Shown in pieces: positions 7,912 through 12,119 of a DNA stretch of 43,702 nucleotides; position 1 is the stretch's first letter, and every line of letters starts with the position of its first letter. The stretch comes from Woeseiaceae bacterium (GTDB lineage Bacteria; Pseudomonadota; Gammaproteobacteria; Steroidobacterales; Woeseiaceae), in assembly GCA_029246105.1 (NCBI GenBank), contig JAQWOA010000032.1:1-43702 (forward strand). The letters are read 5' to 3'. The position numbers and the translations under genes are program-made. The notes beneath the pieces were generated by a model. It did not search any database. It was not told the origin of the DNA and was given only the letters and a program-made list of their open reading frames with translations.

Positions 7912-8997
7912 TTATCCACGTAATGAGAGGTAATCGCGTCCCTTTTGCATAAGCTCAACAAATGCTTCTTCATCACCCTCCGCAATTGTCTCACGTATTC
8001 TGACTGTGGCCTCACACAACGCTTCGAGGGGTCCTAATCCAAACTTATTCAAATTCTGGATTTCAAAATATAGATGCGGGTTATCCTCTGCAACAGCCGC
8101 CGACACCAACAATTGCGAATCAAATGTTGTTGATGACATTTGCGCAAGTTTTGGCGCAGCCTCACCGCTTTCTGCAAGCGCAGTAAAGAAAGCGATATTG
8201 AGCGCATGCGATAAACCCAATACATATGCAATTAAACGATCATGATCATCGAGTCCCATCTCGAGTTGCTCTACCATGGTCGCCGCAAACAATTCCTTTG
8301 CTGCGGCTGTAGCAGCCGCATCACCTACATCGCAAAAAATCAAATGGTGGCCAGATAAGAGTCGAGTATTCGGCCCAAACATAGGATGTAGCGATGTTAC
8401 GCTGCATCCAGCTTCCTTTAATTTTCTTAACCCATTAATTAGCGGTGACTTCAATGATCCAATGTCGAACACCAAACCCTTTGGCTTGAGAGTAGCAAGC
8501 TGCTTAAGAATCTTTCCCGAGTCGGCTAACGGTGCTGCGACGACAATATAATCGAAATCCACTCCAGCATCCGTCCAAGAACTGAATGATCCCGGCCCAT
8601 TCTCAACAGATGGATCCGCTATGGTGGTTGCAAAACTCTGCGACTCAAAAAAATCTACGAACCACTGACCCATATTACCCGCACCACCAATGATCAGAAC
8701 ACTACTCCCATCGCCCTTACCCTCTGCAACGACACGATCTCGCTCTTGGCTTTCCAGTGATGCCCGAATCAACATTTCCAACAAGCTTTCAATTAATTCA
8801 GGATCAATGTTCATTTCTTCAGCTTGCTTACGACCCATATTGAGTACATCCTTCTCACGGGCATAATCGCGAGTACTGGTACCTGAAGATCGCTTGGATT
8901 TACCAATCTGACTTACGATCTGTTGCCGCTTTGCAATAATTTCTACCAATTGTCTATCAATTGCCGAAAGATTTTTACGAAGATTATTGAGACTCAT
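7912..8997 (-). CDS. tyrA: bifunctional chorismate mutase / prephenate dehydrogenase (T-protein)
   Basis: Converts chorismate to prephenate and then, with NAD+, to 4-hydroxyphenylpyruvate for tyrosine synthesis. Residues 1-85 form an AroQ-type chorismate mutase helix bundle (LRKNLSAIDRQLVEIIAKR start). A dinucleotide-binding GGAGNMGQWF follows at about 102-111, then the prephenate dehydrogenase catalytic region with SLHPMFGP near 203-210. At 361 residues it matches the enterobacterial-type fusion rather than the stand-alone enzyme common in pseudomonads. It is first in a compact minus-strand series with rppH, DUF6776, bactofilin and erpA. No ACT domain is visible. Confidence 0.94.
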   Translation of the reverse strand: MSLNNLRKNLSAIDRQLVEIIAKRQQIVSQIGKSKRSSGTSTRDYAREKDVLNMGRKQAEEMNIDPELIESLLEMLIRASLESQERDRVVAEGKGDGSSVLIIGGAGNMGQWFVDFFESQSFATTIADPSVENGPGSFSSWTDAGVDFDYIVVAAPLADSGKILKQLATLKPKGLVFDIGSLKSPLINGLRKLKEAGCSVTSLHPMFGPNTRLLSGHHLIFCDVGDAAATAAAKELFAATMVEQLEMGLDDHDRLIAYVLGLSHALNIAFFTALAESGEAAPKLAQMSSTTFDSQLLVSAAVAEDNPHLYFEIQNLNKFGLGPLEALCEATVRIRETIAEGDEEAFVELMQKGRDYLSLRG

Positions 8998-10349: not shown

Positions 10350-10511
10350 AAATTAATCTCAGTGGTCAATATTGCAGTAGCTACAACTCATCCTTTCATT
10401 GGTGATATTACGCAAAAGTTTATAGTAGGCAGATTTGACAGAAGCTTTACGGCATTACAAAGAAATTCTAATCAATTTCTTATTGCTCAAGATAATAATT
10501 AAGGGTGTAAC

Positions 10512-12119
10512 ATGTATTTGCGCTCCCTGATTTACCTAATCCTGATTTTTTGTATGTCTGTCAATGCACAGGTACCCATTTCACAAGGCACAAATTTTTC
10601 TGTCGATGTGGCGAAAGACGGTCGCCTAGCAATTGATCTAAGAGGTAATATCTGGATAGTGCCGAGCAATGGTGGCAAATCATGGCAACTCACTCAGAAT
10701 CTAAAATCTGCAAAACGTCCTCGCTGGTCACCTAACAATAAACAACTTGCCTATTCCGATGTCATAGATGGTCGCCAAGGTATCTGGCTAATTGAAGTTG
10801 ATACTGGCCAAACAAAAAGCCTGAGCTTAAATTTCCAAATGGACATCTATCCTACTTGGCATCCAGATGCTCAACGGGTGTTATATTCATCGGACACCAA
10901 TGATGACGGATATGACTTGTGGGAAATTGATATTTCATCCGGCTTACGCTGGCAGGTCAGCAATCTTCCAGGCGATGAAATAGAAGGTGCTTGGTCACAC
11001 GATGGACGAGATCTCATATACGTACATCATCAGGATGGCCAATGGTCGTTGATGTTGAGGCGTCATGCACAACCTGATGAAACCTTACTTAGTACGAAAA
11101 ATAAAATTGCAGCGCCAACATGGCGTCCAGACGGTAGCTTAATTACTTTCTTCGAAACCAATGCAACAAGCACCAGCATTAAGATGGTTATACTATCCCA
11201 GCCTCGCCTAGTCCGGATGTATGCATCAAACGAACAATTCTTCGCATCACCGATCAAGTGGTTAGATCGTCAGCGAATGATCTACACAGCTGACGGTCAA
11301 ATTAAGCAACGACTATTTAACTCCAGGTCGTCAAATCCCTTATATTTTCAAACAACTATCTATCCAGATATCAATAAGATTGATCAACGCGAACGCCCAA
11401 AACTTCAATGGTTTGATGAGCCGCGAGGGCAACTCGTTATTCGAGCAGCCAGGTTGTTTGATGGCATCACTCCCGGATATCAGTACAAAAAAGACATACT
11501 AATATCAGGTGGCCGTATAACAGCGATAGAAGAATATAAAAATTGGCCAACATTAATTGTCATCGACATGGGCGATCTAACAATTCTTCCAGGACTTATC
11601 GATGCTGACGCCCTGTTACCAGAAAAGCTATCATCAAGTGATGGTCCAGACCTCTTAACAATGGGAATAACAACAATAGTCGGAAGCCACCCAGATCATA
11701 ATCAACTCAGTAAACTCTGGGCTGGAAAAGAAATTCCTGGTCCTCGATTTCTAAACGCTGAAAAATGGCAAATGTTATTGACTCTCAAATCCGAAATCGA
11801 TGTCACAGCAGCTGTTATTACAAGTAAAGAAGTAGAACTCCTGAGCGGTAAGGCGCTAGCAAAACAAATTAGAGCAATGCAGATTGCTGGCCTGACACCA
11901 GAACAAACCTTCCGTGGTATGGGAATTAACGCTGCAGCGGCCGTTCAAGCTGATCCTTATCTCGGTCGAATTGCAACTGGTACGGCTGCAGACTTTATAT
12001 TTGTAGATGGCGATCCTTTGGCCGACGTAATGAACGTACTAAATGTGCTTGCCGTATTGCGAAACGGTCGCTTGTACAGCATATCTGGATTGAATGATCG
12101 AGCAAAAAACGTAGAATAA
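10512..12119 (+). CDS. exported beta-propeller protein with degenerate amidohydrolase domain
   Basis: A 535-residue protein with a signal peptide (about residues 1-19, cleavage after VNA). Next comes a TolB-like PD40 propeller (about 25-290) with repeated SPNNKQLAYS, HPDAQRVLYSS and RPDGSLITF strands. The end is amidohydrolase-like: RAARLFDGI near 312-320, LPGLIDAD near 360-367 and AADFIFVDGDPLADV near 492-506. In active amidohydrolases LPGLID is followed by an HxH metal motif. Here it reads DADA, and the barrel is only about half the normal length, so metal catalysis is unlikely. A good Shine-Dalgarno (AAGGGTG) precedes the ATG, and the reading frame is long and intact. Function unknown; periplasmic binding or scaffolding is possible. 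Confidence 0.75.
   Translation: MYLRSLIYLILIFCMSVNAQVPISQGTNFSVDVAKDGRLAIDLRGNIWIVPSNGGKSWQLTQNLKSAKRPRWSPNNKQLAYSDVIDGRQGIWLIEVDTGQTKSLSLNFQMDIYPTWHPDAQRVLYSSDTNDDGYDLWEIDISSGLRWQVSNLPGDEIEGAWSHDGRDLIYVHHQDGQWSLMLRRHAQPDETLLSTKNKIAAPTWRPDGSLITFFETNATSTSIKMVILSQPRLVRMYASNEQFFASPIKWLDRQRMIYTADGQIKQRLFNSRSSNPLYFQTTIYPDINKIDQRERPKLQWFDEPRGQLVIRAARLFDGITPGYQYKKDILISGGRITAIEEYKNWPTLIVIDMGDLTILPGLIDADALLPEKLSSSDGPDLLTMGITTIVGSHPDHNQLSKLWAGKEIPGPRFLNAEKWQMLLTLKSEIDVTAAVITSKEVELLSGKALAKQIRAMQIAGLTPEQTFRGMGINAAAAVQADPYLGRIATGTAADFIFVDGDPLADVMNVLNVLAVLRNGRLYSISGLNDRAKNVE

Follow-up and report, generated by a model that had tools for sequence, protein, structure and literature searches.

A gene in the window, that is, in the whole 43,702-nucleotide stretch of DNA analysed here (contig JAQWOA010000032.1 of a Woeseiaceae bacterium), encodes a β-propeller joined to the two ends of an amidohydrolase, and little lies between these ends. 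Is its product an enzyme, the translation of a dying gene, or a protein that has taken up another task? The host genome (58 contigs, 88% complete) is small, at 1.35 Mb. For comparison, Woeseiaceae MAGs from the water column average 1.7 ± 0.7 Mb and those from sediment 3.1 ± 0.8 Mb (PMC12175321). Because of these sizes, the host likely belongs to a small-genome, water-column lineage.

The initial annotation described an intact frame of 535 residues with a Shine-Dalgarno sequence, in which a TolB-like propeller is followed by the head and the tail of an amidohydrolase. Both the frame, which has no internal stop, and the order of domains were borne out (Table 1). The protein begins with a helix (residues 2-15 in the model) followed by VNA-Q, and this resembles the start of a signal peptide. 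Pfam recognised PD40 (4.4e-14) and, for Amidohydro_1, matched the tail alone (residues 458-520, 34.1 bits against a cut-off of 25); sequence matches in the PDB were chiefly to TolB at residues 64-228 and to amidohydrolase tails at about 450-520. The AlphaFold2 model of the protein is confident (mean pLDDT 86.9, pTM 0.69), with pLDDT of at least 80 in most ten-residue blocks of the propeller. In fold comparison, the best match of residues 22-282 is the E. coli TolB model (Z 27.5, 248 residues aligned), and TolB crystal structures match at Z 27.2. By its PD40 repeats, its model and its fold match, this part is a PD40/TolB-like propeller. TolB has a propeller of six blades, through which it contacts its partners; TolB-Pal and TolB-colicin entries were among the fold matches of the 535-residue protein, as was a propeller lactonase. 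The protein differs from TolB in that it is unmatched over the TolB N-terminal domain, its score against the TolB equivalog (TIGR02800 of NCBIfam) is 82.8 bits, below the cut-off of 343.15, and the locus, judged by neighbours named by recognition, is not tol-pal.

Table 1. Features of the propeller-amidohydrolase gene and of the relic upstream of it, in positions of the window.
Feature	Position	Strand	Basis
GGT (gamma-glutamyltranspeptidase) gene relic, 46 codons + stop	10362..10502	+	Match by eye
Shine-Dalgarno-like AAGGG	10501..10505	+	6 bases 5' of ATG, from sequence
Gene for 535-residue propeller-amidohydrolase pseudoenzyme, predicted exported	10512..12119, stop included	+	Frame and full-length homologues
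Signal-peptide-like N-terminus, residues 1-20	10512..10571	+	Sequence; model helix 2-15
TolB-like β-propeller, residues 22-285	10575..11366	+	PD40, TolB Z 27, pLDDT
β-sandwich, N-terminal half (amidohydrolase), residues 303-358	11418..11585	+	Model strands, 3mtw match
Barrel stub β-1 to β-3, residues 359-420	11586..11771	+	Model strands, alignment to relatives
D-A-L replacing metal-binding HxH, residues 366-368	11607..11615	+	Alignment
Deletion scar, residues 421-445; β-4 to β-7 region gone	11772..11846	+	Spacer lengths, pLDDT
Last barrel unit, helices, residues 446-480	11847..11951	+	Model; identity 0.74 in class A
β-sandwich, C-terminal half and last helix, residues 481-535	11952..12116	+	Class-A identity; Amidohydro_1 tail

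The second part of the protein is a homologue within the amidohydrolase superfamily, with which it shares fold and sequence in sandwich and barrel. Residues 305-525 resemble Cc2672 (PDB 3mtw), of the carboxypeptidase/prolidase group, at Z 21.4 (218 residues aligned, rmsd 2.5 Å, 27% identity), but the metal ligands and β-4 to β-7 of that protein are missing. In the model, the N-terminal half of the sandwich has strands at 307-315, 324-332, 335-341 and 349-352, and the barrel stub at 362-364, 386-391 and 412-415; helices follow these three barrel strands, and pLDDT falls below 50 at residues 423-430 of the deletion scar. LPGLID (359-364) and AADFIF (492-497) lie about 127 residues apart, close to the 125 or so first estimated between head and tail. 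Within the host genome, the only full-length match to the protein is the gene itself, and there are seven other Amidohydro_1 matches.

The search for homologues covered 99 genomes, namely 98 of relatives and the window's own. A colinear and nearly full-length homologue was found in 15 of the 60 other genomes of the same genus (one with a TAG codon), and open-frame versions of 581-731 residues, with an extra stretch near residue 420, in 36 of the 45 remaining genomes. The alignment consisted of 68 Woeseiaceae rows (64 of them different) and 14 longer relatives of 836-1003 residues, the shortest of which is cut by a contig end. The named relatives are MAGs called Woeseiaceae, or only Gammaproteobacteria or Proteobacteria; the whole set is termed Woeseiaceae, since in the genome collection its contigs are found within the family of the window. 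By identity, the nearest relative is in G004 (75%), and the nearest named one is L071 (74%, isolate SI072_bin142). Close homologues of about 1000 residues, as a recent deletion would leave behind, were looked for; the two nearest relatives have 538 residues each.

Active amidohydrolases carry an HxH motif on β-1 together with additional His, Asp and, in many cases, Lys ligands. When the window protein is aligned with relatives whose sequence is PGLFDMHAHQ, residues 366 and 368 take the places of the two histidines. The initial annotation was right that HxH is lost; its reading of the replacement as DADA did not hold, since the window has D-A-L here, and D-A-R is found in 14 of the 68 rows from Woeseiaceae, each of them in the window's size class. 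The stretch from β-4 to β-6 with its ligands is gone and the β-8 Asp is replaced, so that no working ligand set is present. Same-length homologues with an intact HxH were sought, and the motif occurs in none of the 68 Woeseiaceae rows: the first histidine is kept in seven and the second in one. Both are present in 10 of the 14 longer relatives. In the 26 Woeseiaceae rows inspected, with the register read by eye, β-5 His, β-6 His and β-8 Asp are replaced or deleted. Nine derived residues are near-invariant (W147, R148, I227, S229, P231, F269, G471, N473 and S523), and they form no recognisable catalytic set. Thirteen further family loci were also read, at least six of them already counted, and HxH is found in none of the 13; L167 and L168 belong to the window's size class, and L175-L177 are 577-residue rows of genus g29 (L176 is L102 and L177 is L098). 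Separately, genome G038 has a 1001-residue paralogue with an intact HxH (L062, PGLWEAHMHQ) besides the shrunken form.

The extent of barrel loss is graded. It was followed by a spacer, counted as the residues from G410 to S438 in window numbering, and rows were assigned to classes by spacer length and inspected sequences. In class A, to which the window belongs, the spacer is 28 in 16 of 16 rows. It is 64, 65 and 68 in 20, 1 and 1 of the 22 class-B rows, 99 in all nine rows of class C, and 136-146 in all 21 rows of class D. Spacers are 144-198 in the longer relatives as a whole and 157-198 in the ten that have HxH. L065 served as reference for the strands (β-3 PRLF, β-4 LLKTY, β-5 SSHE, β-6 VEHL, β-7 VPTL, β-8 AGTD), and missing strands were named from the sequence register, read by eye, and predicted strands, without superposed coordinates. 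In this register, class D retains the eight strand positions with the ligands gone, class C lacks β-4 and most or all of β-5, class B lacks the β-6 stretch in addition, and class A also lacks β-7 and its helix. The window protein retains about three of the eight barrel strands. In the model of a 659-residue class-D protein (pLDDT 85.1, pTM 0.80), strands occupy eight positions, and the model matches 3mtw at Z 30.3 (22% identity); the residues aligned to 3mtw drop from 305 in this relative to 218 in the window protein, which has no eight-stranded barrel. A second propeller stretch, seen in the longer relatives inspected, is missing from the Woeseiaceae rows. As a minor observation, the class-A homologue of G049 (L018/L080; DDIP01000364.1) has one in-frame TAG after about residue 421, which is either real decay or a sequencing error.

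The classes share ancestry, as can be followed on a quick tree with SH-aLRT support, built without the spacer columns. Class A is a single clade (99) nested in an A+B clade of 35 rows (100), and class D rows are scattered over the base. The 577-residue L098 and L102 fall within a separate D-type clade. Constraining all A and B rows to one clade was rejected (p 4.8e-68, for a group named after the tree had been seen, and on a quick tree), and thus the 64-65 stage had at least two independent origins. A single origin of A+B that includes L051 and leaves out L098/L102 was not rejected (p 0.20), nor was a single origin of C including L049 (p-AU 0.148), so that neither a third origin of the former stage nor a second origin of C is needed. 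Only the origin of L098/L102 is clearly separate. A strict ladder from D through C and B to A was considered and is unsupported, for on the tree the A+B clade is not derived from C, which branches off to the side. The deletion suspected in the initial annotation is shared by orthologues, with the same spacer in every row of one clade; the shrinkage is old and common to this whole clade. Fresh deletion and assembly error are ruled out by that identical length in separate genomes.

The direction was loss, because relatives with longer barrels and HxH exist at the same chromosomal position. The neighbouring genes are named by recognition of their sequences, and we take them to be tyrA, adhC, cysQ, pduO, ampE and ampD. 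In other families of the order, longer relatives stand by tyrA (L058), by cysQ (L059 and L061) and near ampD (L063). HxH is kept in L063 and L064, its first histidine only in L059-L061, and its second only in L058. In another family, the 969-residue L183, encoded in a genome of one contig, has lost HxH; the orthologue decays in more than one family. The two-propeller amidohydrolases of about 1000 residues in other taxa (L108, L109 and L139) have the same domain order and a propeller 29-31% identical, but they retain what the window protein does not: an HxH motif, the two halves of the propeller and 197-198 residues of spacer. Beside these, L171-L174 (genus g48, another family of the order) have 686-701 residues and keep HxH, and they match colinearly in one stretch; therefore half of the propeller seems to be missing there too. 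The β-6 His is kept in L171 and L173 and is Lys in L172.

Selection on the gene is purifying. Across 15 unsaturated pairs, ω (Nei-Gojobori) is 0.109-0.236; one saturated pair and two that repeat a protein already used were left out. Comparing the window with its two nearest relatives gives ω of 0.208 and 0.174 at dS 0.68 and 0.85. Together with the clade-wide shortening, these values agree with the earlier judgement that this is a stable derivative rather than a fresh pseudogene. The regional ω of the same two comparisons is highest at residues 367-445 (0.305 and 0.219); for L005-L006, the closest pair, the peak is in the tail (0.299, with few changes). Against L071, five neighbour genes have ω of 0.049-0.126, and constraint on this gene is weaker than on them, since its 0.174 is 1.4 to 3.6 times theirs. 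Since the metal site and most of the barrel are lost and selection yet keeps the protein, it probably acts by binding and not by catalysis. We consider it likely, on the whole, that the product is an exported, probably periplasmic, pseudoenzyme, and most likely a binding or an adaptor/scaffold protein. Its start, the model and its conservation suggest that it is exported, and they likewise suggest that it folds alone and binds something. We infer that the 535-residue protein is not catalytic; it cannot build the ancestral metal site.

Conservation within class A bears on which parts are in use. Among its 16 rows, mean pairwise identity is 0.81 at residues 481-530, the top of eight regions, and 0.74 at 446-480; it is 0.67 in the head, 0.66 in the propeller, 0.65 at 421-445 and 0.62 at 367-420. 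The sandwich tail and residues 446-480 thus outdo the propeller, and even the scar comes near it, which makes it unlikely that the propeller alone works while the amidohydrolase remnant shrinks beside it and needs only not to misfold, as might be supposed from the repeated shortening of the barrel and from TolB, the best fold match of the propeller, binding its partners through that domain. Much less probable is continued catalysis at a site newly formed in the propeller or the sandwich, perhaps completed in a dimer: not one barrel metal ligand survives in the window and the nine derived near-invariant residues suggest no recognised catalytic set, even if some propellers catalyse, the lactonase matched here among them, and an atrophied GH10 barrel is reported to have kept slow activity (PMC4432964). 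An ageing pseudogene whose frame is open by chance would account for ω above that of five neighbours, the stop in G049 and clean losses of the gene elsewhere, but it is strongly disfavoured by the low ω at such dS and by the identical spacer throughout class A, and the adjoining GGT gene did decay in the same lineage while this frame remained open.

For the binding pseudoenzyme that we prefer, the steps from enzyme to stub can be read from sequence and predicted structure. The ancestor would have been a two-propeller amidohydrolase in which the propellers may have governed entry to the metal site of the TIM barrel, much as a propeller serves as a gate in S9 peptidases. Carboxypeptidases and prolidases are among the solved barrels that match best, so this ancestor may have cut short peptides. 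In this lineage, the metal ligands and the second propeller half would have been lost first, ahead of any barrel strand, and the barrel would then have shed strands, one or two β-α units per step. What remains is one propeller and, from the amidohydrolase, a composite β-sandwich formed by its two ends, three strands of the barrel and the final barrel helices. The propeller face and the sandwich would hold a ligand or partner. More tentatively, it is possible that a TIM barrel is here dismantled by one or two β-α units at a time, with the stages alive in one family; that the fold itself sets the endpoints, given that separate lineages came to rest at 64-65 residues at least twice; and that the barrel ends as a sandwich and a three-strand stub which form, with the propeller, a new exported binding module.

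Loss of core elements within a domain is known as domain atrophy, and 75 cases, TIM barrels included, have been described (Prakash and Bateman, 2015; PMC4432964). The window protein resembles them in losing core elements of the barrel. Unlike the cases given there, it has lost every metal ligand and a larger number of strands, and a graded series survives on one tree. According to another report, most partial domains are artefacts (PMC4443539), and clade-wide evidence is important for this reason. Here the intact frame, the spacer identical clade-wide and purifying selection mark a core loss in a gene that is neither a fragment nor misannotated. A second parallel is the PHP domain of E. coli Pol III, a metal-binding domain that lost ligands and is retained for structure; its structure is well conserved (PMC3666897), whereas the barrel of the window protein is dismantled. 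Among the literature titles found on amidohydrolases with TolB or β-propellers, pseudoenzymes, TIM-barrel deletion and inactive amidohydrolases, none reports this protein. Domain atrophy itself is already known; what is new is the surviving intermediates and the repeated endpoint. These, as well as the missing second propeller half, also go beyond the initial annotation. How a globular domain can shrink without ever being unfolded is mostly deduced from single examples. In this family a ligand-free barrel, two partly dismantled forms and a stub all belong to one tree, and dozens of genomes carry them at one chromosomal place. How stable each form is can be measured directly, and the recurring endpoint offers a test of whether the permissible cut sites in a barrel are determined by its fold.

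The gene is dispensable, and some relatives lost it cleanly. It is missing between adhC and cysQ in G001 (L166), of the same genus, and in G150 and G217 (L194 and L195), of the streamlined genus g27 in the same family; none of the nine g27 genomes listed has a match to it. Among 38 loci, 35 have adhC upstream and 30 have cysQ downstream, and the exceptions are mostly cuts at contig ends. A GGT frame without stops, either full or cut by a contig edge, is found within 4.2 kb upstream in 33 of the 38 (Pfam G_glu_transpept 2.1e-69 in L074). An intact upstream GGT is missing in L071, L076, L100, L103 and L105. The relic in the window, which is situated between adhC and the propeller-amidohydrolase gene, was missed by tblastn at 1e-4 and recognised by eye, reading VVNIAVATT where the intact GGT starts with VTNIAVATT; in L071 the relic is another one and shorter (7924-8019, 31 codons and a stop), and by eye it matches both the start and the end of GGT. 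As a neighbour, GGT hints at glutathione or γ-glutamyl peptides, and this hint was set aside because GGT is missing in five loci and a relic in the window. The host genome also has another GGT-like sequence (G000:C42, 29-31%). The distance between GGT and the gene tracks the tree (L071-L107 and L121). In the A+B clade, GGT ends within five bases of the assumed start of the gene or runs into it by as many as 28 bases; in classes C and D and in the two B rows of separate origin, the genes lie 0.7-1 kb apart. In L089, this gap contains a frame resembling pyridoxamine-phosphate oxidase.
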